Positions 1 through 43,033 of a stretch of 47,341 bases of DNA are shown piece by piece. The stretch lies in assembly GCA_021846285.1 (NCBI GenBank), contig JAJZCB010000020.1, forward strand, positions 1-47,341, read 5' to 3'. Below the pieces are notes generated by a model. It made no database searches, was not told where the DNA came from, and worked only from the letters and a program-made list of their open reading frames with translations. Both the position numbers and the translations under genes were made by a program. The DNA comes from Bacillota bacterium. GTDB lineage: Bacteria > Bacillota > Bacilli > Alicyclobacillales > SLC66. Numbering within the stretch: position 1 is the stretch's first letter; each line of letters opens with the position of its first letter.

Positions 1-1226
1 CTAACAGGAGCGATTCGATCGGGAACTTCTGGGTGGATTTTATCAAGATTCATACGCGCGTGTTGCTGCCGCTTGCCATCGCGTTTGCCGTTCTTCTGGT
101 TGGCCTGGGCGTTCCGCAGACGCTGCTGGGAGCGCAGGCGGCGCACACATTGCAGGGCGGGACGCAGATCATCTCGCGCGGACCCGTCGCGTCTCTGGAA
201 GCGATCAAGCAAATCGGCACAAACGGCGGCGGTTTCTTCAATGCCAACTCCGCCCACCCATTTGAAGATCCGACGGCGTTCACGTCTGTTTTGGAAATGG
301 TCGCCATGGGGGTCATTTCCGTGGCGTTGATTGCCGCCTTTGGCAAATTTATCGCCAATCGTCGGCAGGCGACGGTGCTGTATGTCTTCCTGACGACGAT
401 TTTGCTGGTCGGGGCGTTTGTCGTGTACGCCAACGAAGCGGCGGGCAACCCGCTCGTGCACCAGGCCCTCGGCATTGCAGGGCCGAATATGGAGGGCAAG
501 GAGTGGCGCTTCGGTCCGGCGCTCAGCAGCGCGTTTGTCGCCATGACAACGGCATTCACCACGGGCGCCGTGAGTTCCATGCATGACAGTTTGATGCCGC
601 TGAGCGGTCTCGTGCCCTTTCTCTTCATGATGTTCAACCTGATTTTTGGCGGCAAAGGCGTCGGGTTGTTGAATATTGTCATGTTTCTGATCATCACCGT
701 GTTTTTGTCCGGGTTGATGGTCGGACGGACACCCGAGATATTCGGGAAGAAAATCGAGGCCAGGGAGATCAAGCTGGCAACGGCGGCGATGCTGGTCCAT
801 CCCTTTTTCATCCTGGTTCCCACGGCGATCGCCGTGGCGACGAAAGCCGGAACGTCGTCGATCCTGAATCCCGGACTGCACGGCTTTTCGGAAGTCCTCT
901 ACGCGTTTACCAGCGCTGCCGCCAACAACGGGTCGGCGTTTGCGGGATTGAACGGCAACACTGTGTTTTACAACGTGTCGCTTGGAATCGTCATGCTGCT
1001 TGGGCGTTATGTGTCGATCATCGCGATGTTCGCGATTGCGGGCTCCCTGGCCAAAAAGGCGATCATACCGACAAGCGCCGGCACGCTAAAGACGGACACA
1101 TTGGCCTTTGGCGGCGTGTTTGTGGCGGTCTTTGTCATCGTGGGGGCGCTGACTTTCTTCCCCGCCCTAGCCATCGGTCCAATCGGAGAACAGTTGCAAA
1201 TGCTGAGCCGTCTGGCGGGTCATTAG
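1..1226 (+). CDS. kdpA: Potassium-transporting ATPase subunit KdpA (5' end cut by window)
   Basis: KdpA is the K+-selective channel-like subunit of the KdpFABC pump in the cytoplasmic membrane. The frame is open from base 3 to the window edge, and the residues before the GTG at 33 (GNFWVDF) belong to the conserved KdpA core, so that GTG is an internal Val and not the start. About 400 C-terminal residues remain of the usual ~557. Visible are the selectivity-filter loop TNGGGFFNANSAHPFE, a later loop TTGAVSSMHDSLMPLSG and the fourth loop SAAANNGSAFAGLNG, separated by several hydrophobic membrane segments. kdpB begins 22 bases downstream, so the genes form one operon. Any kdpF and the operon promoter lie outside the window. 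Confidence 0.97.
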   Translation, partial: NRSDSIGNFWVDFIKIHTRVLLPLAIAFAVLLVGLGVPQTLLGAQAAHTLQGGTQIISRGPVASLEAIKQIGTNGGGFFNANSAHPFEDPTAFTSVLEMVAMGVISVALIAAFGKFIANRRQATVLYVFLTTILLVGAFVVYANEAAGNPLVHQALGIAGPNMEGKEWRFGPALSSAFVAMTTAFTTGAVSSMHDSLMPLSGLVPFLFMMFNLIFGGKGVGLLNIVMFLIITVFLSGLMVGRTPEIFGKKIEAREIKLATAAMLVHPFFILVPTAIAVATKAGTSSILNPGLHGFSEVLYAFTSAAANNGSAFAGLNGNTVFYNVSLGIVMLLGRYVSIIAMFAIAGSLAKKAIIPTSAGTLKTDTLAFGGVFVAVFVIVGALTFFPALAIGPIGEQLQMLSRLAGH

Positions 1227-1248: not shown

Positions 1249-3303
1249 ATGGCTAAGGAGTCTTCCAGCACCATATCTGGCGAAATCATGACGCGGGCCG
1301 TATGGGAATCGTTTGTCAAACTCAATCCGCGCGTTCTCGTCAAAAATCCGGTGATGTTTGTGGTGGAAATCGGGTTTGCCATCACTCTGGCGCTGTCGGT
1401 CGATCCGCTCATCTTCGGCGGCGTGCGGCACCCTGGGCAGAGGGCGTACAACATGACTGTGGCGGTCATCCTGCTGATTACGATTCTGTTTGGCAATTTT
1501 GCGGAGGCTGTCGCGGAAGGGCGGGGCAAAGCGCAGGCGGATTCGCTGCGCAAGGCGAAGACGGATTTGACCGCCAGTCGTCGCAAGAGTTCCGGAGACT
1601 TTGAGTCGGTTCCCGCCACCGCCTTGCGCAAGGGCGATGTTGTTCAGGTGACCGCAGGCGACATGATCCCCGCGGACGGCGAGGTGCTTGAGGGGCTGGG
1701 AAGCGTGGACGAATCGGCCATAACCGGAGAATCGGCGCCAGTGATCCGGGGCGCGGGCGGAGACTTCAGCTCGGTCACCGGGGGCACGAAGCTGCTGTCC
1801 GATGAGCTGGTCATCCGGGTGACCGTCGATCCCGGCGAGTCCTTTCTGGATCAGATGATCAATCTGGTGGAGGGCGCCAGTCGCCAAAAGACGCCCAATG
1901 AGCTGGCGCTCTCGGTCCTGTTGGCCGGACTCACGCTTATTTTCGTGATCGTCGTGGATACGCTTGAACCGATGGCCATGTACGTGCGCGGCAGCATCGG
2001 CGTCGCGACTCTCATCGCGCTGTTGGTGTGCCTGATTCCCACGACGATCGGGGCGCTCTTGTCCGCGATCGGGATTGCCGGCATGGATCGCGTGATTCGC
2101 TTCAATGTGATCGCCAAGTCGGGAAAGGCTGTGGAAGCGGCCGGCGACGTGAATACGCTGATTCTCGACAAAACGGGAACGATCACAATCGGGAACCGGC
2201 TGGCGAGCGAGTTCATTCCTGTGGGCGATCATACCGAACAGGAACTGATTGAGGCGGCGGTGATCTCCTCGCTGTTCGACGAGACGCCGGAAGGCCGCTC
2301 GGTGGTTGATTTGGGACGGGAAAAAGGCGTTTCGCGCGCACGTGAATCATACAGCGACGCGGAAAACGTGGAGTTCAGCGCAGACACGAGAATGAGCGGG
2401 TTGAACCTGGCCGATGGATCGCTGTATCGCAAAGGCGCGGTGGATGCGATTCGCCGCCATGTGCTGGAGCAGAGAGGACAGGTTCCCGACGATTTGGCCG
2501 GCAAGACCGAAACGATCGCCAGGGCGGGCGGAACGCCGCTCGCCGTGATCCGGGGAACGGATGTCCATGGACTCATTTATCTGAAAGACATTGTGAAGCC
2601 GGGGATGAAACAGCGATTCGCGGAACTGCGCAAAATGGGCATCAAAACGGTCATGTGCACCGGAGACAACGCGCTCACCGCCGCAACCATCGCAAAGGAA
2701 GCGGGCGTGGACGATTATATCGCCGAGGCCAAACCGGAAGACAAAATGCGGCTGATCAAGGCGGAACAGGATCAGGGCAAACTGGTGGCGATGTCCGGCG
2801 ACGGAACGAACGATGCGCCGGCGCTGGCGCAGGCCGACGTGGGGCTGGCCATGAACACGGGCACCACGGCCGCCAAGGAAGCCGGCAATATGGTCGATCT
2901 CGATTCCGATCCCACAAAGCTGATCGAGGTTGTGTCGATTGGCAAGCAGTTGCTGATCACGCGCGGCGCGATCACGACGTTTTCAATCGCCAATGACGTT
3001 GCCAAATACTTCGCGATCATTCCGGCGATGTTTGTGGCGATGATACCCAGTCTGCAGGCGCTTAACGTGATGCGCCTGACAAGCCCGCACAGCGCGATCC
3101 TGTCTGCTCTGATCTTCAATGCGCTGATCATTCCCCTGCTGATTCCGCTGGCGATGAAAGGCGTCAAATACCGCCCCATGAGCGCGACGTCCATGCTGTT
3201 GCGCAACCTTCTGATTTATGGCGTCGGCGGGGTGATCACACCGTTTGCGGGCATCAAGATCATCGACCTTCTCCTGACGGCGTTGGGGTTGGCCCATATA
3301 TGA
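1249..3303 (+). CDS. kdpB: Potassium-transporting P-type ATPase subunit KdpB
   Basis: KdpB is the P-type ATPase subunit that hydrolyses ATP to drive K+ uptake through KdpA. The 684-residue length is normal. The phosphorylation motif DKTGT places the catalytic Asp at residue 307, the same number as in E. coli KdpB. The actuator motif TGES starts at residue 159 and the hinge motif GDGTNDAPA at about 517. Hydrophobic segments occur near residues 30-85, 215-275 and 580-680. The ATG follows AAAGGAGAA at a suitable distance. The stop lies next to kdpC, and the kdpA-kdpB-kdpC order is canonical. Confidence 0.98.
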
Positions 3304-3338
3304 GCGATCGTCGGACTGTAAAACTGGAGGGGTTAGGC

Positions 3339-3908
3339 ATGATAAATTTTTGGCGCTCCCTGCGTTTTACGATCGTGTTTGCCGTCTTGCTGGGCATCCT
3401 GTACCCGCTGCTGATCACGGGGGTCGGCAATCTCCTGTTTCCATGGCAGGCGCAGGGGAGCATGGTGGTCTGGCGCGGGCGGGTGGTCGGCTCCGAGTTG
3501 ATCGCCCAGCAGACCACTGTTCCGTGGCTCTTTCATCCGCGGCCGTCAGCCGTGGATTACGCCGGCAACGCGTCGGGCGGCTCGAACCTGGGACCGACGA
3601 ATCCGGCGCTGATCGCCGAAATCAGGCGCAACCTGCACGTCGTGGAGCGGCAGAATCCCGGCGTCGCAGTGTCCTCCATTCCCACGGAGATGGTGGAATC
3701 GTCCGGTTCCGGGCTCGATCCTGACATCTCGATACCCGACGCCCTGATCCAGCTCCCCCGCGTCGCGCGGACGTCCGGTCTGAGCCATTCCTACCTGGAA
3801 GGACTGATCGCCCGGTACACGCAGGAACGGGTGCTCGGCATCTGGGGAGAACCGATGGTCAACGTGATGCGGCTCAACATGGCGATCGTCAGGCGCACCG
3901 GACGGTGA
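3339..3908 (+). CDS. kdpC: Potassium-transporting ATPase subunit KdpC
   Basis: KdpC is the single-span accessory subunit that stabilises the KdpFABC complex. The protein has an N-terminal membrane helix and the family motifs YPLLITG, GSELIAQ, FHPRPSA, ASGGSNLGPTNP and the C-terminal QLPRVA...VNVMRLNMA. The longest frame begins at an ATG at 3300 that overlaps the kdpB stop as ATGA, but that start lacks a ribosome binding site. The ATG at 3339 follows GGAGGGG closely and gives 189 residues, the usual KdpC length, so I chose it. The extra 13 residues of the longer form do not resemble a KdpC N terminus. Confidence 0.96.
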   Translation: MINFWRSLRFTIVFAVLLGILYPLLITGVGNLLFPWQAQGSMVVWRGRVVGSELIAQQTTVPWLFHPRPSAVDYAGNASGGSNLGPTNPALIAEIRRNLHVVERQNPGVAVSSIPTEMVESSGSGLDPDISIPDALIQLPRVARTSGLSHSYLEGLIARYTQERVLGIWGEPMVNVMRLNMAIVRRTGR

Positions 3909-3930: not shown

Positions 3931-4016
3931 GGACGGCTCATGCATGCCGATGCGGCGAGTATTAGCGGTCGTTAGGCCGCGGCTGTCTGAGCGGCAGCGG
4001 CATGCATGAGCCGTCC
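3931..4016. repeat. Perfect 19-bp inverted repeat between kdpC and kdpD
   Basis: The arm at 3931-3949 (GGACGGCTCATGCATGCCG) is exactly complementary to 3998-4016, enclosing 48 bases. The right half (GGCTGTCTGAGCGGCAG, then the arm) resembles the elements at 6496-6529 and 44834-44903. In RNA it would form a strong hairpin that could attenuate kdpD relative to kdpABC, because it lies 22 bases after kdpC. There is no T-run, so a classical terminator is unlikely. The role is inferred. Confidence 0.8.
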
Positions 4017-4172
4017 GGTGGGCACGAGCCACCGCGATTTTCCGGGGTAGACTTCCATGGCGCTGGCGCGCCACCAACAACCGGGAAGAAAATTCGCCTG
4101 CGGCGATTTTTCGGGGCAGGACGGCGATTCATACAAAGCGGGTGATGGCGCTTGCAGCAGCGAGAGGATGAC

Positions 4173-6488
4173 ATGGCGTCGGACGCAGAACGTGCGCCTG
4201 GCAACATCTTTGGGGGAGAACCGGGTGAACTCAAACTGTTCATCGGAGCGGCTCCCGGAGTCGGCAAAACGTACACCATGCTTCGTGAAGCGGCGGGGCT
4301 GCGCGAGCGCGGCGTAGATGTCGTGGTGGGCTATGTGGACTCCCACGACCGCCCGGAGACGCAGGAGCAGGTGGGTGATTTGGAAATTATTCCACGGCGT
4401 CTGATTCACTACCATGGGCACACATTTGAAGAGGTTAATCTGGAGGCCATCTGCGCGCGCCGGCCAGAGGTCGTCGTCATCGATGAGCTCGCCCACACAA
4501 ACTCGCCCGGTTCGCTGTTTCCGAAACGCTACATGGATGTCGAGTATCTGCTGGACCAGGGGTTCAGCATTTTGACGGCGGTCAATGTCCAGCATATCGA
4601 GGGCATCCACGAGGAGGCTGAGGAGATCACGGGAATCCGCGTCAGGGAGTTGATTCCCGCCTCCTTTGTGACGCGCGCGCGCGAGGTCGAGGTCATCGAC
4701 GTGACCCCGGAAACGCTTCGCCAGCGATTGCGCGACGGCAGCATCTATGCGCCCGCAAAAGTGAATCAGGCGTTGGACAATTTTTTTCGCAAGTCCAATC
4801 TCTTCGGACTTCGGGAACTGGCGCTGCGAACGGTGGCCGAGGATGTTGACCAGCGCCTGCAGCGTTCGTATGAGCGTTCCCGTATCCAGGGACCTGTGGG
4901 CGCGCGCGAGACGATCATGGTGTGTGTCAACGACCTTGCGCGGGCCAAGCAGCTTATCCAGAGAGGCTATCGGATGTCCCGGCGCATGAAGGCCGATCTG
5001 TATGTGCTCACCGTATGCAACACGGTTGAGGATCACCTGAAGGAGCGCGATATCGAACGGCTGGCGGCCTTGAAAAAAATGGCCCATGAGCATGAAGGCG
5101 AGTGGATTTTGGAACCGCAAAACGATCGCGCCATCGGGCCGGCGATTCTTGATGCGGTCAACAGACTCAACGTCACGCAGGTGGTCATCGGACAGCCGTG
5201 GCGCATGAAACGCTGGCGGTTCATCTGGAATGACGCGCCTGTCCGCCATCTGCTTCGGCACACGAAATATGCGGATCTGCGGGTTGTGGGGTGGAAGGAG
5301 GCTGAACAGGCGCAGGAGCGCGCCGGCTGGCGTGCGCCCGCAGATGAATCTGCGCACAGGCAGCAGCCCACCCGCAATGGGGCCTCGACAGAACTGGCGA
5401 AGGGCGGGAATCAGCAGGGCCGTCTGACGATTTATGTCGGCGCGGCGCCAGGCGTTGGAAAGACGTATAAGATGCTTCGTGATGCGCGCGACTGGCGACG
5501 GCGGGGTAAAGATGTGGTCGTAGGGTTGGTGGAGACGCATGGCCGCGCAGAAACGGCGGCTCAAATCGAAGATCTGGAGATCATCCCCAAGCGATTGCAT
5601 CGTCTGCAGGACCGACTCTATGAAGATCTGGACGTCGATGCGATTCTTCGCCGCAATCCGCACATCGTCGTCATCGATGAATTGGCGCACTCCAATGTTC
5701 CGGGCAGTGTGCGAGCCAAGCGCTATCAGGATATCGAATATCTGCTCGATCGCGGAATCAATGTCGTCACGGCCGTGAACATCCAGCATCTGGAGAGCCT
5801 GCACGACAAAGTGGAGCATATCACCGGGGTCAAGGTGCGCGAACGGGTGCCCGACTGGTTCATGAAACTGGCGCGGGAAGTGAAGCTCATCGATATCACG
5901 CCGGAGACTCTGCAGCAGCGGTTGCTGGACGGCAAAATCTACTCGGATGATAAAATACAGCGCGCGCTTGACAACTTTTTTCAGGTTGCCAATCTGGCCG
6001 CGCTGAGGGAACTGGCCCTGCTTGAAGTTGCGGATGATGTCGACCAGCGTCTGGATCGCGAACGGGGGAAAAAAGGGGCGGCGGACACCACAACCGAGCG
6101 CATCCTTGTAGCGGTCAACCACAGGCCGCACTCGGAAAAGTTGATTCGCAGAGGCTGGCGTCTGGCCGATCGGCTTAAGGCGGAGTTATGGGTGCTCGTG
6201 GTGTTGTCGCAAGAAAATATGTCCGAAGAAGATACGAGGGATCTGGACAGGATTCAGCGGCTCAGTGAACAGTTTGACGCCAGATTCATCACCAGAAAAG
6301 CGCTTGATCAGGGAGTGGGAGCGACGATTGTGGCGGTGGCCGAGGAACTGGGCATCTCCCAACTTGTCACAGGGCAACCCCTGCCGCCGATTCGCTTCAT
6401 CAACCGTCTGCAGGGGAACCCGATCGATTACGTGCTGCACCACGCCGACTTTGTGGATCTTTACATTGTCGCGAATTCCCGGGATTGA
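4173..6488 (+). CDS. kdpD: Kinase-less KdpD with two tandem KdpD-sensor/USP modules
   Basis: Standard KdpD is a membrane histidine kinase with an N-terminal KdpD domain, a USP domain, four membrane helices and a kinase. This 771-residue protein contains the cytoplasmic part twice and nothing else. Module 1 has a P-loop GAAPGVGKT (Lys32), DELAHTN near residue 107, the conserved block DVTPETLRQRL...ALDNFF and a USP domain at about 245-365. After a hydrophilic linker (about 366-412) the plan repeats: GAAPGVGKT with Lys430, DELAHSN, DITPETLQQRL...ALDNFF and a second USP domain at about 640-771. No H-box, ATPase domain or membrane helix exists before the stop. The ATG at 4173 follows GAGAGG; a TTG at 4152 lacks a site. 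It probably acts as a soluble regulator or c-di-AMP-type sensor tied to Kdp, which is inference. No kdpE is adjacent. Confidence 0.93.
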   Translation: MASDAERAPGNIFGGEPGELKLFIGAAPGVGKTYTMLREAAGLRERGVDVVVGYVDSHDRPETQEQVGDLEIIPRRLIHYHGHTFEEVNLEAICARRPEVVVIDELAHTNSPGSLFPKRYMDVEYLLDQGFSILTAVNVQHIEGIHEEAEEITGIRVRELIPASFVTRAREVEVIDVTPETLRQRLRDGSIYAPAKVNQALDNFFRKSNLFGLRELALRTVAEDVDQRLQRSYERSRIQGPVGARETIMVCVNDLARAKQLIQRGYRMSRRMKADLYVLTVCNTVEDHLKERDIERLAALKKMAHEHEGEWILEPQNDRAIGPAILDAVNRLNVTQVVIGQPWRMKRWRFIWNDAPVRHLLRHTKYADLRVVGWKEAEQAQERAGWRAPADESAHRQQPTRNGASTELAKGGNQQGRLTIYVGAAPGVGKTYKMLRDARDWRRRGKDVVVGLVETHGRAETAAQIEDLEIIPKRLHRLQDRLYEDLDVDAILRRNPHIVVIDELAHSNVPGSVRAKRYQDIEYLLDRGINVVTAVNIQHLESLHDKVEHITGVKVRERVPDWFMKLAREVKLIDITPETLQQRLLDGKIYSDDKIQRALDNFFQVANLAALRELALLEVADDVDQRLDRERGKKGAADTTTERILVAVNHRPHSEKLIRRGWRLADRLKAELWVLVVLSQENMSEEDTRDLDRIQRLSEQFDARFITRKALDQGVGATIVAVAEELGISQLVTGQPLPPIRFINRLQGNPIDYVLHHADFVDLYIVANSRD

Positions 6489-7978: not shown

Positions 7979-8827
7979 ATGTTTCAGAATGACTTGCTCG
8001 CGGGTAAGGTTATTGTCATTACAGGCGGTGGAACAGGACTCGGCCGGGCTATTGGGGAACGGTACCTGGAACTCGGCGCAAAGCTTGCGATCACCAGCCG
8101 GCGGGAGGATGTGTTGCGGGAGGCCGCAGCGCAGATGTCCGCAGCGGGCGGCGAGGTTTTCTACATCCCTTGCGACGTGCGCGATCCGAACCAGGTCTCT
8201 GCCATGGCGGACGCAGTGATGGAACGGTATGGAAAGATTGACGTCCTGGTCAACAATGCAGCGGGCAATTTTGTGAGTCCCACGGAAAAACTGTCCACCA
8301 GGGCGTTTGACGCCGTGATTGGGATTGTGCTTCACGGCACTGTGCATTGTACCCTCGAAGTCGGCAAACGATGGATTGCGGCAGGGGTGGGCGGCACGAT
8401 GTTAAATATCGTGGCGACGTATGCATCCTCCGGAGCCGGATCGGGATACGTTGTTCCGTCGGCAGTCGCCAAATCAGGAGTGCTTGCACTGACTCGTTCC
8501 CTGGCCGTGGAGTGGGCCAAATATGGCATTCGCCAAGTGGCCATTGCCCCTGGGCTGTTTCCAACGGAAGGCGCATGGTCGCGGTTGGTGCCGACAGCGG
8601 AACTGGCTGAACGGATTGTCGAGCGTGTGCCTTTGCGCAGAGTCGGCGAGAAACGGGAACTGTGCAATCTGGCCGCCTACCTCATAGCAGATGAAGCTGC
8701 CTATATCAATGGCGAAGTGGTGGTCATAGACGGAGGCGAGTGGTTGCGTGGAGCCGGACAGTTTAACGATCTGGAAAGGCTGACAGACCAGGAGTGGGCG
8801 ACGCTCTCCGCCATGGCGAAGCGATAG
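7979..8827 (+). CDS. SDR-family 2,4-dienoyl-CoA reductase-like oxidoreductase
   Basis: This is a short-chain dehydrogenase of 282 residues with the cofactor motif TGGGTGLG near the N terminus and the NNAAGNF motif. The usual YxxxK is replaced by VVPSAVAK, with a Tyr 13 residues upstream of the Ser. That is the layout of mitochondrial-type 2,4-dienoyl-CoA reductase (Tyr, Ser and Lys catalytic). The downstream PGLFPTEGAWSRLVPT and GGEWLRGAGQFNDL regions also resemble that family closely. Likely role: NADPH reduction of dienoyl-CoA in unsaturated fatty-acid beta-oxidation, comparable to Bacillus FadH. The ATG has the site TTGAGGGC 5' of it and follows cca by 6 bases. A general SDR of other specificity remains possible. 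Confidence 0.85.
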   Translation: MFQNDLLAGKVIVITGGGTGLGRAIGERYLELGAKLAITSRREDVLREAAAQMSAAGGEVFYIPCDVRDPNQVSAMADAVMERYGKIDVLVNNAAGNFVSPTEKLSTRAFDAVIGIVLHGTVHCTLEVGKRWIAAGVGGTMLNIVATYASSGAGSGYVVPSAVAKSGVLALTRSLAVEWAKYGIRQVAIAPGLFPTEGAWSRLVPTAELAERIVERVPLRRVGEKRELCNLAAYLIADEAAYINGEVVVIDGGEWLRGAGQFNDLERLTDQEWATLSAMAKR

Positions 8828-8945
8828 CCGCGGCCCCGTTCCCCAAAAAGGTGATCCATGGACCGAAATAACGAGCGGGGCTGGCAATTTTCATTTTGAA
8901 ACGTTACATTAAGTAAGGACTGGGTATTTTCGAGGGGGTTGTCCG

Positions 8946-10754
8946 TTGGAGAAATTACTTGAACGATCAGAGCTTGACGTTAAGTATACGTGGTCGACAG
9001 AGGCCATATTTGCGTCGGACGAACGATGGGAAGAAGAATTGCAGGCGGTGCAGACATTGGTTGGCCAGGATCCGTTCGTCGGCGTTCGGGGGCGGCTGGG
9101 CGAATCCGCAGACTTTGTTGGACAGTATTTTCTCATTGAGCAGACGCTCGCAGAACGCTTGGGGAAACTGCAGATTTATGCGCATACAAAGGCGGATCAG
9201 GACACAAGATTGTCGGAGTACCAGGCCATGATGAGCAGAGTCCAAAGTGTATCTGCCGAGTATGCGGAGCAGGAGAGCTTTTTTGAACCAGAACTCCTGT
9301 CCCTGCCTGAAAGTCTTCTCCATACATATTTGCAGGATGATGCTCTGACAGACCATCGCCACGCACTGGACAACGTCATCCGCAATAAGCCGCATGTACT
9401 CTCCACTGAGACGGAAGCGGTCATCGCCTCTTTCAGCGATGTACTGTACGGCTCTGGGCAAACCTTTTCGCAACTTACCAACGCTGATTTTAATCACGGA
9501 TCATTTACCGTCGACGGCACGGAATATGCGGTGACAGAAGGACGTTTGGGGATTCTTCTTCGCAATCCGGACAGAACCGTCCGGCAGCTCGCTTATGAAC
9601 GTCTTTACGATACCTATCTGGGTCACAAAAATGCGATCGCGGCGCTGTACGCCAACAGTGTTAAAACCGATATTCGACTGGCGCGCGCGAAACGCTTTGG
9701 GACGGCGAGAGATTTTGCCCTGTTCGAGAACAACATTCCCACCTCTGTCTACGACGCTCTCGTTACAGGGGTTCGCAACAATGCGGCGCATTTGCATCGC
9801 TACTTTGAACTTCGCCGCCAACGTCTTGGACTTGATCGCGTTCGGCTGTACGACAAGTATGTTCCGTTGGTGGAAGCTCAGTTGGATGAGTATGCGTTCG
9901 AGGACGGGTTCAGGCTCATTAAGGAAGGGCTTGCAAACTTGGGCGACGAATATGGGACTATTTTGGACCGGGCTCGGGAAGAGCGCTGGATCGATGTGTA
10001 TGAGACTCCGGGGAAACGCAGCGGCGCCTATTCAACGGGCTTCTATGCAACCAGGCCCTATATACTGCTGAACTATCAGGGGAATTACAACAGCGTTTCG
10101 ACGCTTGCGCATGAATTGGGGCATAGTGTACATACGCATCTGGCAGGACGGTCGCAGTTGCCCCAATACTCGGGATACTCCATTTTTCTCGCTGAAATCG
10201 CCAGCACGGTAAACGAAACTCTGCTTGTCAATCATCTTCTTGACGTAACAAAAGATCCCATGGCGCGCGCGACCCTGATCAACCAGCAACTGGACAGTCT
10301 TACGGGCACCATTTTCAGGCAGACCATGTTCGCGGACTTTGAATGGCAAACGCACCGCGAAGTTGAAGAAGGGCGTGCGCTTACGCACGACAGTCTGTGC
10401 GAGCTGTACGCAGGGCTGAACAGCACATACCAGGGTGAAGCGTATGAAGAGGATGACCGTTCCTCAGCAGAGTGGTCGCGCATTCCCCACTTTTACCGCG
10501 CATATTACGTGTTTCAATACGCGACGGGTATGAGCGCCGCTCTGGTGTTTGCGGATCGCATCCGGAAGGAGGGTTCAGCGGCAGCCGACCGTTATCTGGG
10601 TTTTCTGCGCGCCGGTTCAAAAGATTATCCGCTCGAAGTTTTGCGAGAGGCCGGATTGGACATGACCAATCCGGATGTGGTCACACAGGCCCTGAGTATA
10701 TATGGGGAACTTGTGACAGAACTCGAGCGACTGTTGGCAGTTCTAAAACAATGA
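8946..10754 (+). CDS. pepF: Oligoendopeptidase F (M3 family metallopeptidase)
   Basis: This is a cytoplasmic zinc metallopeptidase that cleaves oligopeptides. The zinc-binding HELGH motif has His389, Glu390 and His393, preceded by the family block YILLNYQGNYNSVSTLA. A downstream acidic LAEIASTVNE supplies the third zinc ligand, as in M3 peptidases. The length of 602 residues fits PepF. I chose the TTG at 8946 because GAGGGGGTT lies about 6 bases before it and the first residues continue the family N terminus (LDVKYTWSTEAIFASDERWE). The gene converges with the XRE regulator, with only 5 bases between the stops. Confidence 0.94.
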   Translation: MEKLLERSELDVKYTWSTEAIFASDERWEEELQAVQTLVGQDPFVGVRGRLGESADFVGQYFLIEQTLAERLGKLQIYAHTKADQDTRLSEYQAMMSRVQSVSAEYAEQESFFEPELLSLPESLLHTYLQDDALTDHRHALDNVIRNKPHVLSTETEAVIASFSDVLYGSGQTFSQLTNADFNHGSFTVDGTEYAVTEGRLGILLRNPDRTVRQLAYERLYDTYLGHKNAIAALYANSVKTDIRLARAKRFGTARDFALFENNIPTSVYDALVTGVRNNAAHLHRYFELRRQRLGLDRVRLYDKYVPLVEAQLDEYAFEDGFRLIKEGLANLGDEYGTILDRAREERWIDVYETPGKRSGAYSTGFYATRPYILLNYQGNYNSVSTLAHELGHSVHTHLAGRSQLPQYSGYSIFLAEIASTVNETLLVNHLLDVTKDPMARATLINQQLDSLTGTIFRQTMFADFEWQTHREVEEGRALTHDSLCELYAGLNSTYQGEAYEEDDRSSAEWSRIPHFYRAYYVFQYATGMSAALVFADRIRKEGSAAADRYLGFLRAGSKDYPLEVLREAGLDMTNPDVVTQALSIYGELVTELERLLAVLKQ

Positions 10755-10759
10755 AGATG

Positions 10760-11281
10760 CTATGACTCGGGGGAGTCTCGCTGTGTGCGGGTCTCCTCCA
10801 GGCTTGCCTGGTGAATAAACTCGCTGACCAGTTGCAGAACTTGCTGTGAAGAATGCCGACTGGCGTGAAGTTTTTGCGCAAACGCGAGATATTCCTGCGC
10901 CTCTTCCTGAAGCATGAACGCAATGGTGTCCGGTCGCAGAGCGCGACTCCACTGGGGGAGGGTTTGCGCGAACAGCAGATCTTCACCATCCTCCTGTTGC
11001 TCGCGACCTTTCGGCCGTGGGGAGACGGGATACAGGAACTGTTCTGCCGACGTTTCCGTCTTATGAGGCCCCTTGTCGAGGAAGAAATAGATGGAGACAG
11101 GAAACGCTTCGGCCAAGTCATAGATCAGATCGATCGACGGACTTTTGCGTCGCCCTTTTTCCAGAGCTGACAGGTGACTGATCGACAACCCTGAACGTCT
11201 GGACAGTTCCTCCAGCGACCAGCCCTGCAGTTTGCGCAGTTGTCTGAGTTTTGCGCCGTTGAAGCGGCTAACGTGTTCCAT
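10760..11281 (-). CDS. XRE-family transcriptional regulator
   Basis: The 173-residue protein has an N-terminal helix-turn-helix of the Cro/C1 type at about residues 8-62 (KLRQLRKLQGWSLEELSRRSGLS...LEKGRRKSPSID). A helical, charged C-terminal part of unknown function follows, with no recognisable ligand domain. The ATG is preceded by CGAGGTGAACC. Upstream, a perfect palindrome overlaps the likely -35 box, suggesting autoregulation. The target genes are not evident; the neighbours pepF and proS both point away from its promoter region. Confidence 0.88.
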   Translation of the reverse strand: MEHVSRFNGAKLRQLRKLQGWSLEELSRRSGLSISHLSALEKGRRKSPSIDLIYDLAEAFPVSIYFFLDKGPHKTETSAEQFLYPVSPRPKGREQQEDGEDLLFAQTLPQWSRALRPDTIAFMLQEEAQEYLAFAQKLHASRHSSQQVLQLVSEFIHQASLEETRTQRDSPES

Positions 11282-39456: not shown

Positions 39457-39514
39457 TTTTGGTGCTGCTGCATTGCCGTACTACAAGAGGGAAGAATCTT
39501 GCAAACTAGGTCGG

Positions 39515-39545
39515 AAGACGGAGGCGGCCGTCTTTTTCTTTGTTA
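39515..39545 (+). terminator. Rho-independent terminator after asnB
   Basis: Stem AAGACGG (39515-39521) pairs with CCGTCTT (39528-39534) around 6 bases and is followed by a T-rich run (TTCTTTGTT). It precedes the RND gene, whose -10-like TATACT is at 39544-39549. Confidence 0.7.
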
Positions 39546-39592
39546 TACTGTCTATTGTAAGATTGAACCAGACGAACGAGGTGTGGATATTG

Positions 39593-42500
39593 TTGTCGCG
39601 ACTCACAACATTTTCTCTGAAAAACGGGGCTGTCGTTGCCATCCTGGTATTGTTTCTCATTGGAGTCGGGCTTTATTCGGGGTCGGCGATTCCTATGCAG
39701 GAATACCCGAATGTCGCCATACCCTGGGTAAACGTCGCGATCCCCTATCCCGGGAGCACGCCGCAGCAGGCGTATCAGGATGTCGGGCGACCGCTGGAGA
39801 AGGCGTTTGCGGCCATTGGCGGTCTGAAAAATATGTATGATTTCAGCACCGCAGGTTCTGTTGATTTTAGCCTTGAATTTCACTACAGCCGACCGATAGC
39901 TTCCGTGCTTCGCGATATCCGTACTGCGGTCGACGGCGCCGGACTTCCCTCGGCCGCAGGTACCGCGCAGATCCAACAAGCCACTCCTGGAAGCACGGAT
40001 GTGTTTCAGTTTGCCCTGTCCGCACCCGGCAGTCTGTATCCGATTCAGGACTATGCAAAGCAGACTGTGGAACCCGCACTGCTCGCTGTGCAGGGCGTGA
40101 GCAGCGTCGACATTCGCGGCGCCGCCAAACGTTCGATTTATATCGATGTGAATCCTGCGCTGGCCCGTGCAGACGGCATCACGCTGCAGGATGTCGCCAA
40201 TGCGCTGCAGGCCAATCAACTGAACGCGCCCACAGGCGACACGCGGATCGGCGGCGCCCAGATGCCGATCGTTTTGCGCAATCAGTATGCCTCGCTTGCA
40301 CAAATTCGCGCCGTTCCCATCTTCACTGTGACACAGAATATGAATGGTCTCCAGAGTGCGTTTCAAGGCGTGAGTTCGGGAATGTCCGCGCTCGGAACGG
40401 GGCTTGGCTCTCTCGCAAAAATGGACGCAGCTTTGCAGGCGGAGATCGAACTGTCAAACCAACTCAACTCACTCACTGCCGCTTCCGCGCAAATACAGAC
40501 GCAAATGGCCCTGCTCCGTCAGCAGTCGTCCACGAGTCGAGCGACGCAGGCAAAACTGGCGGCGCTTCAGGCGCAGGCGATCGCGCTGCAAACGGAGCAG
40601 TCCACACTCGAGACCAAACTGCGCGCCATCGCGGCCAGCCTGGGCGCGGCGACCCAAAGGGGAACCCCGATCGGCCAGAGTGGACTGCAGTCGCCGACGC
40701 TTGGGCAGACAGGCTCCCCTGCGTCGGTTGCCCCTGCGCTCGGCGTGAAGACCGTGACGCTTGGCGACATCGCGACGGTGACGTATCGCACGCCGGCCTC
40801 GGGCGGGCTCATTACACGACTCGACGGCCGACCGGCGGTGGTTGTGGGGATCCAGGCGTCCAGCAATGCCAATGTAGTGACGCTGGTGCAGCAGGCGAAA
40901 GCGGTTTTGGCCAAACTCACGCTGCCGCCTCACTTTGTCGTCACACCCTTGCAAGATCAGGCGAAGCAAACCCGCGATTCCGTACAGAGCATGATGCGCG
41001 AGGCTGCGCTCGGCGCGCTGTTCGCCATGTTGGTCACACTTCTGTTTCTTCGCAACTGGCGCGCCACCATCGTCGCTGTCATCGCCATTCCTCTCTCCGT
41101 TTTGGCCGCTGTCACCGTCATGAATCTGGTCGGTTATACGCTCAATATCATGACACTCTCAGGCATGGCGGTGGCCATCGGGCGCGTCGTGGATGACAGC
41201 ATTGTCGTCATTGAGAATCTCTACAGGCGGATTCGCGCTGCGAAAAACCATGACTCGCAACTGGTGCTGAAGGGAACGGCGGAGGTCGGGTCGGCCATCG
41301 CAAGTTCAACCGCCACCACAGTTGCGGTGTTTTTGCCGATGGCTTTTGTGCCGGGCATCGTCGGCCATTTCTTTGCGCCGTTTGCCTGGACGGTGATCGT
41401 TGCCCTCCTCTTCTCCCTGCTCGTGGCGGTAACCGTCGTACCTCTTATCAGCAAATGGACCCTGTTGCGAACCAGGCATCAAGCCGCCGCACAGGGCCTG
41501 CTGCAGCGCGCGTACATGCGGATTCTACGCGGGGCCCTTCGGCGCAAGTGGCTTGTGGCGATCGTCTCCCTCGCGCTGTTGCTGGAAAGCGGCGCGGTAT
41601 TGGCCACGCAGATCGGGTTCAATTTCTTGCCATCCGGCCAGACGAAGTCGTATTCCGTCAATGTGACGATGCACCACAATGCCCGGCTCCCACAGACGGA
41701 ACGCATTGTACAGCAGATCGAACATATTCTGCAGACCCAACCGGGCGTCAAGTTGTTCGACAGCTATGCACAGGGTGTTCAGGGAGCTCTTGGCGTCGAG
41801 CTTACGAACAGCGCGCCGGCGCATTTCTCCACGCTGTTGCGAGAGCGGTTGCGAGCGGTGCATGGAGCAAAGTCGATCACCGTGTCGGGGCAAAATGGAC
41901 TGTCCAATCAGAATCAACTGTTCATCCAGGTCAATTCAGCCAATTATGCGGACATGTCCCGCGCCAGTAGACAGATCGCGAACGCCATTCGGGGCATTCC
42001 GGGACTTGCCGGGGTCGTCACCACGCAGCAGGCGGCCAAGCCGCAGGTGGTCGTCAATGTAAAAGCGCAGCGAGCTGCTCAGTACGGGGTGAGTCCCGCG
42101 ATGATCGCCTCTGAGCTCGAAACCATGGTGACTGGACAAAAGATCGGCTACGCACAGATCGGATCATCGAAGCCAGATCTCATCCTGCGTCTGCAGACGC
42201 CCGGCGGACTCGGACAACTGTCGGCTATCCGCAATCAACTGATCAATACGATGACGGGCAAGTCCGTACGCCTGGGCGATGTCGCCACTGTATCAATCGT
42301 AGCTGGACCGACCGAAATCACGCGGCTCAATCAGGATCCGTATATCGCCGTGACGGGTCAGATCACGTCAGCCAATGCGAGCGGCGTCACGACGCAGGTC
42401 AGCCGTGACATCGCACAGCTCAAACTGCCGAGTGACGTCACCTGGCAACAACAGGGGGCCGCTCAATCCATGAATAACGGATTCGTGAATCTGGCGCTGG

Positions 42501-43033
42501 CCATGATCGCATCCCTGGTTCTGGTGTTCATGATCATGCTGCTGACTTTCAGCGAGTTTGCGGCGCCGCTGGCCATTTTGACTGCGTTGCCCTTCTGCCT
42601 GGTCGGAGGCGCAAACGCCCTGTGGATCGTGCACCAGCCCCTTGGCATGCCGGGTATGATCGGGTTCCTGATGCTCATCGGCATAGTGGTGACAAACGCG
42701 ATCGTCCTGATGGATCGCGTGCGCCGCAATCAGATGGCGGGCATGCCGGTGCGAGAGGCGATCGTCGAAGCGGGCGCCATTCGGTTGCGGCCGATACTGA
42801 TGACGGCCACGGCTACCATCTGTGCCTTGTCGCCGCTGGCCTATTCAACCGGAGCGGGCGTCATCTCAAGTACGCTTGCGATCGTCGTGATCGGTGGGCT
42901 GCTGACCTCCACGCTCTTGACGTTGATCATTGTGCCGAGCACGTATGAAACGTTGGTGTGGATCCGGAGTAAGGTGTTGCGTCTGAAGGATCACCCTGTT
43001 GCCCAAGGCTCGGTTGAGCCTGAGATGGTGTGA
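39593..43033 (+). CDS. RND-family efflux permease with coiled-coil insertion
   Basis: This is a proton-driven multidrug or lipid exporter permease with a fully conserved membrane core: the first helix after SLKNGAVVAIL, the porter-domain IPYPGSTPQQAYQDVGRPLE, the RND signature MAVAIGRVVDDSIVVIENLYR (split; includes the Asp pair), KGTAEVGSAIASSTATTVAV and a second helix cluster near the C terminus. From about residue 245 to 383 the first porter loop holds an extra ~140 residues. This is Gln/Ala/Ser/Leu-rich heptad sequence (AQIQTQMALLRQQSSTSRAT; LAALQAQAIALQTEQSTLET) followed by a Gly/Ser linker. TTG 39593 is chosen because AGGTG lies 8 bases upstream; the open frame extends to 39473. No adaptor or outer-membrane partner is adjacent. 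Length is 1146 residues. Confidence 0.92.
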   Translation: MSRLTTFSLKNGAVVAILVLFLIGVGLYSGSAIPMQEYPNVAIPWVNVAIPYPGSTPQQAYQDVGRPLEKAFAAIGGLKNMYDFSTAGSVDFSLEFHYSRPIASVLRDIRTAVDGAGLPSAAGTAQIQQATPGSTDVFQFALSAPGSLYPIQDYAKQTVEPALLAVQGVSSVDIRGAAKRSIYIDVNPALARADGITLQDVANALQANQLNAPTGDTRIGGAQMPIVLRNQYASLAQIRAVPIFTVTQNMNGLQSAFQGVSSGMSALGTGLGSLAKMDAALQAEIELSNQLNSLTAASAQIQTQMALLRQQSSTSRATQAKLAALQAQAIALQTEQSTLETKLRAIAASLGAATQRGTPIGQSGLQSPTLGQTGSPASVAPALGVKTVTLGDIATVTYRTPASGGLITRLDGRPAVVVGIQASSNANVVTLVQQAKAVLAKLTLPPHFVVTPLQDQAKQTRDSVQSMMREAALGALFAMLVTLLFLRNWRATIVAVIAIPLSVLAAVTVMNLVGYTLNIMTLSGMAVAIGRVVDDSIVVIENLYRRIRAAKNHDSQLVLKGTAEVGSAIASSTATTVAVFLPMAFVPGIVGHFFAPFAWTVIVALLFSLLVAVTVVPLISKWTLLRTRHQAAAQGLLQRAYMRILRGALRRKWLVAIVSLALLLESGAVLATQIGFNFLPSGQTKSYSVNVTMHHNARLPQTERIVQQIEHILQTQPGVKLFDSYAQGVQGALGVELTNSAPAHFSTLLRERLRAVHGAKSITVSGQNGLSNQNQLFIQVNSANYADMSRASRQIANAIRGIPGLAGVVTTQQAAKPQVVVNVKAQRAAQYGVSPAMIASELETMVTGQKIGYAQIGSSKPDLILRLQTPGGLGQLSAIRNQLINTMTGKSVRLGDVATVSIVAGPTEITRLNQDPYIAVTGQITSANASGVTTQVSRDIAQLKLPSDVTWQQQGAAQSMNNGFVNLALAMIASLVLVFMIMLLTFSEFAAPLAILTALPFCLVGGANALWIVHQPLGMPGMIGFLMLIGIVVTNAIVLMDRVRRNQMAGMPVREAIVEAGAIRLRPILMTATATICALSPLAYSTGAGVISSTLAIVVIGGLLTSTLLTLIIVPSTYETLVWIRSKVLRLKDHPVAQGSVEPEMV

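Follow-up and report, generated by a model that had tools for sequence, protein, structure and literature searches.

The kdp gene cluster analysed here ends in a KdpD-like gene that encodes the sensory module twice, and it raises the question of whether such a protein is a sensor without enzymatic activity or a kinase that acts on the potassium pump itself. The gene is located in a 47,341-nucleotide stretch of Bacillota DNA (contig C114, hereafter the window). The original prediction, made from the letters of the window, described it as a KdpD with two P-loop/Usp units and no kinase.

Two KdpD/Usp modules in one intact reading frame

The features of the cluster that lie in the window are as follows.

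33..1226, plus strand: kdpA, 3′ part (PF03814), with a 127-nt exact overlap to contig C160 (locus L117), which carries the 5′ part
1249..3303, plus strand: kdpB, the presumed substrate (TIGR01497, 1090.3 bits)
1732..1734, plus strand: codon of KdpB Ser162 in TGES, the presumed phosphorylation site
3300..3908, plus strand: kdpC (PF02669)
4173..6488, plus strand: tandem KdpD-Usp-KdpD-Usp protein of 771 aa, intact ORF with ATG start
4224..4847, plus strand: KdpD P-loop (atypical serine kinase) domain of the N module (PF02702, 288.1 bits)
4245..4271, plus strand: Walker A of the N module, GAAPGVGKT, with Lys32
4482..4487, plus strand: Walker B Asp-Glu of the N module, residues 104-105 (E. coli D109/E110)
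4905..5297, plus strand: Usp domain of the N module, residues 245-375 (below the Pfam threshold; structural match to 7ji4)
5301..5411, plus strand: inter-module linker, residues 377-413 (pLDDT <50)
5412..6041, plus strand: KdpD P-loop (atypical serine kinase) domain of the C module (PF02702, 306.3 bits)
5439..5465, plus strand: Walker A of the C module, GAAPGVGKT, with Lys430
5676..5681, plus strand: Walker B Asp-Glu of the C module, residues 502-503
6096..6449, plus strand: Usp domain of the C module (PF00582)

The tandem ORF has an in-frame alternative start, TTG at 4152, upstream of the ATG. Pfam KdpD matches the protein in two stretches (E 3.1e-177), as does the one-module NCBIfam model NF038185 (KdpD-like non-kinase, 373 positions), whose 893.6 bits are the sum over the whole tandem protein and not the score of one module. 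Pfam Usp exceeds its threshold once only, in the second half, and the first Usp domain is recognised by its structural match. The P-loop and Usp domains are thus each present twice, with the P-loop lysines at residues 32 and 430 exactly as predicted. Both Walker B motifs read IDELAH, and the two halves share 45.7% identity across 359 alignment columns. The beta1-alpha1 loop of the C-module Usp, VNHRPHSEKLIRRGWR, is strongly conserved among window-type C modules. The absence of a histidine kinase from the chain was also borne out, with neither DUF4118 nor HisKA found in it by a domain search at E 0.001; the DUF4118, GAF, HisKA and HATPase set of a full-length histidine kinase KdpD is not present in the chain. 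The arrangement of short KdpD/Usp proteins, PF02702 followed by Usp with no HisKA or HATPase, occurs twice, the first Usp being identified by structure only.

The draft genome consists of 164 contigs, one of them the window, and an assembly or frameshift error could have truncated a full-length KdpD, as the original prediction cautioned, or merged two genes. However, the same full-length ORF is found in two other assemblies (L038 and L039, with proteins 97% and 95% identical), fused relatives are present in complete chromosomes (L048, L052 and L070), and the histidine kinase is located elsewhere in the same gene cluster. The repeated intact ORF and the complete chromosomes exclude an artefact, the chance of which we regard as negligible.

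Spread of the fused architecture

A search with a tandem query listed 394 relatives, and the best 80 of these gave 79 loci from 75 assemblies by accession. A fused tandem is encoded in 67 of these loci and an adjacent gene pair in the other 12, a fraction that says nothing on frequency as the set was drawn with a tandem query. Followed up in this way, the suggested search for tandems without HisKA shows that the form recurs. Among the named hosts are Alicyclobacillus, Sulfoacidibacillus, Ferroacidibacillus, Sporolactobacillus, Paenibacillus, Fontibacillus and Melainabacteria MAGs. In 62 of the 79 loci, the tandem or pair is preceded on its own strand by a KdpC match. Two loci carry further modules: L046 (2938-7520) has four KdpD/Usp modules in a row, a fused tandem followed by N-type and C-type single genes, and L048 has a tandem plus a broken third module.

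Within the family of the window's organism, 13 of the 14 genomes with KdpD above the cut-off carry a fused tandem, four of them two, while the fourteenth (G010) encodes a full-length KdpD and, side by side, two single modules. This set is not independent of the retrieved loci, since 10 of the 17 other family genomes are the same assemblies. In a phylum sample of 398 genomes, with at most 7 candidates scored per genome, 59 passed the cut-off, and setting aside three marginal ones (G300, G061 and G381, 26-28 bits) left 56 KdpD-bearing genomes including the window's own. A fused tandem, taken as two matches in one frame, occurs in 8 of the other 55 (seven read as DNA, G236 from the match table alone), and G344 has a neighbouring, unfused pair. 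With these counts in the phylum sample and the family, the fused copy is less unusual than first thought. A known regulator occurs repeatedly in a genuine tandem form that is undescribed in the literature searched: in those sources, available in part, we found neither a description of a KdpD-Usp-KdpD-Usp protein nor experimental work on any tandem KdpD, with the proviso that a 2006 paper on the split kdpD of A. acidocaldarius may report the doubling.

A separate histidine kinase and regulator upstream of kdpA

The window begins inside the broken-off kdpA, and its first 127 nt are identical to the end of contig C160. The joined gene order is histidine kinase - kdpE - (kdpF) - kdpA - kdpB - kdpC - tandem. 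The histidine kinase chain (L117:2997-4574) has 525 aa with DUF4118, GAF, HisKA and HATPase, and no KdpD or Usp domain. The KdpE-like regulator has its best match to NF007820 at 273.7 bits, below that model's KdpE equivalog cut-off of 325, and a 66-aa ORF at the expected place is a putative kdpF. Looking elsewhere in the genome for a KdpD kinase and KdpE, as had been advised, thus led to the adjoining contig, where the two genes rule out a lost kinase domain and replace the ‘unlinked kinase’ with one in the same gene cluster. In contrast to the full-length serine-histidine kinases of E. coli and S. aureus, the tandem chain has no membrane, GAF, DHp or CA domains, these parts being on the separate upstream protein; ‘tandem’ here denotes two serine-kinase modules, whereas KdpD in those species joins a serine and a histidine kinase.

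This layout would also allow another role for the tandem, in which it supplies the N-terminal input that the split histidine kinase lacks, acting in trans on the DUF4118-GAF-HisKA chain and tuning KdpE phosphorylation rather than the pump. The lack of KdpD and Usp domains in that chain agrees with such a role. So does its proximity: among the 13 tandem-bearing family genomes, a DUF4118 chain (open frames 510-561 aa) lies on the tandem's contig within about 8 kb in nine, or ten once the window's own overlap-joined contig is included, with the chain on another contig in G002 and G007 and none in G009. A split kdpD was reportedly described in Alicyclobacillus acidocaldarius by Schleussinger in 2006, which also counts in favour. 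Split layouts are known in Deinococcus radiodurans as well (kdpD-N/SK/RR; PMC5716572, available in part); like the window, both species have separate N-terminal and histidine kinase chains in one kdp region, although kdpD-N of D. radiodurans is a single module. Against an input role, 13 of 29 genomes chosen for carrying the tandem (G344 with an unfused pair) have no DUF4118 match, and Lys-Asp-Glu is intact in the C or second module of every one of the 13. In addition, KdpD forms without histidine kinase domains mostly occur where KdpE is missing, according to the accessible part of PMC11018627. In Bacillus thuringiensis, deletion of a short kdpD left kdp transcription unchanged (PMC6488665, available in part). 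We consider it unlikely that the tandem serves as this input.

Other features of these loci were noted. Between kdpC and the tandem gene (window 3931-4016) is a 26-nt inverted repeat, 92% matched with 34 nt between the arms, and the whole gap folds with z -4.33. The repeat is present in L039, one 17-nt arm core is found in L038, and two single arms with one mismatch occur elsewhere in the genome. The window also encodes, at 39473-43033, a 1186-aa AcrB/AcrD/AcrF-type (RND) transporter in a Bacillota genome. In G344 (L164:2385-6988), kdpB is in two pieces 2.6 kb apart, possibly due to an insertion.

Serine-kinase active-site residues and the presumed KdpB target

Ser162 of the window's KdpB lies in TGES, and TGxSxP is matched by 70 of the 74 KdpB matches above 300 bits; of the remaining four, L108 and L113 have TGES with different following residues, and L163 and L164 are partial ORFs. 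As TGES is a general motif of P-type ATPases, conservation of Ser162 is not diagnostic of its phosphorylation.

The part of PMC11018627 available to us reports that the P-loop domain of KdpD works as an atypical serine kinase (ASK) and inhibits KdpB by phosphorylating Ser162, an inhibitory phosphorylation traced to KdpD only in 2024. The activity of E. coli KdpD, the numbering of which is used for these positions, requires Walker A G36/K37/T38, the W39/R190 pair, D109 and E110, and was abolished by E110A (PMC11018627, same part). All seven tested positions are kept in both tandem halves, with W39 as Tyr, a substitution also seen in 9/9 single-module references in the alignment. Both halves accordingly have the active-site pattern of short KdpD/Usp proteins: Walker A Lys, Walker B Asp-Glu, and W/Y39 with R190. 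A description as ‘no kinase’ is not supported, because the P-loop domain is itself a serine kinase by that published work and the histidine kinase chain is encoded upstream, and our finding corrects the view of such genes as kinase-less sensors.

The closest known relatives are the short KdpD/Usp serine kinases (Deinococcus geothermalis KdpD; NF038185, KdpD_non_kinase), which like the tandem consist of P-loop and Usp domains with no histidine kinase in the chain, are encoded after kdpC and keep the ASK residues. The tandem differs in joining two modules in one chain, the N and C halves of which are specialised. The D. geothermalis protein, a single module, is stimulated by c-di-AMP and phosphorylates KdpB Ser162 (PMC11018627, same part). 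Taken with the tested residues kept in both halves, this lends computational support to the suggestion that the tandem may act directly on the pump.

Predicted packing of the two Usp domains

An AlphaFold model of the tandem, built from 42 tandem sequences, has a pLDDT of 83.7 and a pTM of 0.83, with a linker (377-413) of low confidence. In the model, the first Usp domain (residues 245-375) resembles 7ji4, the S. aureus KdpD-Usp/c-di-AMP structure (Z 16.1, rmsd 2.7, 124 residues). In single superpositions, residues 244-771 align to the tandem-type Usp protein 4r2j (Z 21.8, rmsd 3.4, 241 residues) and to UspE, 5cb0 (Z 21.6, rmsd 3.3, 244 residues). A model of the Paenibacillus type (pLDDT 75.4, pTM 0.68) behaves alike (3loq, Z 20.3, rmsd 3.6, 248 residues), the two models being not fully independent as their alignments share sequences. 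By sequence, the Pseudomonas syringae KdpD domain 2r8r is the only match among solved structures at E 0.01. Both predicted models thus pack Usp1 on Usp2 side by side in one chain, as in the tandem-type Usps UspE, Rv2623 and TTHA0350, and favour the intramolecular dimer raised in the original prediction. Unlike in those proteins, each Usp domain of the tandem comes after a P-loop kinase domain.

Specialisation of the N and C halves

Usp ligands bind at the beta1-alpha1 loop. Among the 99 modules of our tree (see below), the 26 window-type N and 26 C modules differ markedly in this loop, with a mean entropy of 0.34 bits in C versus 1.64 in N modules, while the whole-Usp means are 1.30 and 1.59. 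Eleven positions are conserved within both module types yet different between them. The far stronger conservation of the C-module loop argues, at the level of sequence, for Usp2 as the main ligand site.

Our preferred reading, to which we assign a probability of about 0.65, is that the tandem is a covalently joined dimeric KdpB serine kinase with specialised halves. The two Usp domains would pack as an intramolecular Usp dimer that sets the activity of both flanking P-loop domains. Under ample potassium, one or both of these would move an ATP phosphate to Ser162 of the KdpB encoded in the same cluster, and the pump would be shut; the signal could be c-di-AMP or another Usp ligand. Transcription would be a separate matter, left to two proteins encoded upstream of kdpA: the DUF4118-GAF-HisKA-HATPase chain of the split histidine kinase and the KdpE-like regulator. 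The halves would divide the labour and not be redundant, the C module having the more conserved features and the N module being more divergent.

Lys-Asp-Glu is kept in all 67 C modules of the retrieved fused tandems and in 32 of the 67 N modules (27 window-type Bacillota and 5 Melainabacteria). In 34 N modules the Glu is changed (Gly 32, Ser 2), and one further N module is cut off. All 34 come from Paenibacillus, Fontibacillus, Paenibacillaceae MAGs or a single entry labelled Bacillus sp. (L088), and in 34/34 the C module retains the Glu. The seven phylum-sample tandems read as DNA likewise have a changed N-half Glu (Gly 3, Asp 3, His 1) and an intact C half, with the Walker A Lys also lost from the N half of G339. 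None of the seven has two intact halves, which indicates that the window's form with two active sites is rarer outside its own relatives. Asp-Asp stands at this site in 5/5 N halves of the family's second tandem. Since E110A abolished the activity of E. coli KdpD (PMC11018627, same part), N halves with a changed Glu are probably not kinases. The N half of the window is itself intact, and this asymmetry is one seen in other branches.

A stronger form of the preferred reading, which we put somewhat short of even odds, is that tandems are obligately asymmetric serine kinases, in which one module would catalyse and dock KdpB while its partner would be a nucleotide-bound regulator. Lineages would then stand at different stages, from two intact sites in the window type to a pseudokinase N half with an intact C half in Paenibacillus and relatives, where E110 became Gly or Ser (Asp or His in other genomes, including the family's second tandem), and where some loci carry double c-di-AMP riboswitches. 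A natural covalent dimer with one half probably dead in some lineages and both intact in others would allow the roles of dimerisation, Usp ligand and active site to be separated by simple mutants, and bears on how Usp ligands switch the KdpD serine kinase.

Some further variants were observed. The second tandems of G001, G002 and G016 (L156, L157 and L159), with Asp-Asp for Asp-Glu in the N half, belong to a second kdp cluster and are oriented divergently from kdpA and a weakly KdpE-like regulator. In L113, two single serine-kinase modules precede a full-length histidine kinase KdpD (8192-10858) with an apparently degenerate ASK site of its own (Walker B DG, P-loop GKTR), a pattern that would fit a shift of this activity to the adjacent modules. 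Among the eight full-length KdpD rows of the alignment, one has E110G.

Origin of the two modules

The tree of the two halves that had been proposed for dating the duplication was a quick, midpoint-rooted one with SH-aLRT support only, built from 99 hand-picked modules of 250 (183 after thinning at 90% identity); the N module of G339 (L162) has a very long branch and was excluded from clade tests. The 26 window-type N modules and 26 C modules form separate clades (SH-aLRT 100 and 99) that are sisters at 95, and eight full-length KdpDs form their own clade (99). The N and C clades also take in the first and second genes of unfused pairs, with the N gene first in every pair on the tree. This places the duplication before the sampled window-type genomes, unless it spread by transfer. 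Two other tandems, the Paenibacillus type and the second one in the window's family, are placed apart. A single origin of Bacillota N modules is not rejected (AU p 0.224), and the likelihood is slightly higher (by lnL 1.48, p 0.523) when the Paenibacillus type is given a duplication of its own.

The tandem might also be a neutral or dosage doubling, two redundant fused copies with no asymmetric or dimeric mechanism. Such a doubling would fit the tree, on which the fused or separate state changed at least 3 times for N modules or 4 times for C modules, and also the four modules of L046 and the broken third module of L048. Redundant copies, however, are not what the modules look like: they keep separate clades, their order and module-specific conserved positions. 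Moreover, the seven Paenibacillus-type N modules on the tree have all lost the catalytic Glu yet keep Lys37, Asp109 and Arg190, which speaks for a retained non-catalytic role of the N module. We regard a mere doubling as improbable.

c-di-AMP as a candidate signal

The genome has two diadenylate cyclase domain matches. The available part of PMC8214093 gives the c-di-AMP motif of Firmicutes KdpD-Usp as (A/G/C)XSXSX2N(Y/F). This motif is not visible in either tandem Usp in an alignment inspected by eye and made without S. aureus KdpD: at the S244, S246 and N249 positions, the window has N, L, A in Usp1 and N, R, S in Usp2. The motif serines are also missing from the single-module KdpD-N of D. 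radiodurans, which was compared here as a relative of the c-di-AMP-activated D. geothermalis protein.

A c-di-AMP riboswitch (RF00379) is absent near the window's kdp genes, the genome's five sites being on other contigs and none on L117; the window's cluster has a KdpE-like regulator in its place. With upstream DNA before kdpA often reaching only about 0.5-1.6 kb, RF00379 was found upstream of kdpA in 0/13 window-type loci scanned (including its own L117 and the unfused L072) and in 9/16 loci of the Paenibacillus type. L072 has one site far downstream on the other strand, L163 has one downstream of the tandem, and a scan of L099 (Melainabacteria) gave none. Control of expression by c-di-AMP is thus well supported for part of the tandem's relatives, and for the window's own protein control by this nucleotide is only possible. 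In five of the nine positive loci, all from Paenibacillus (L073, L074, L107, L111 and L116), two consecutive RF00379 aptamers precede kdp operons whose last gene is the tandem.
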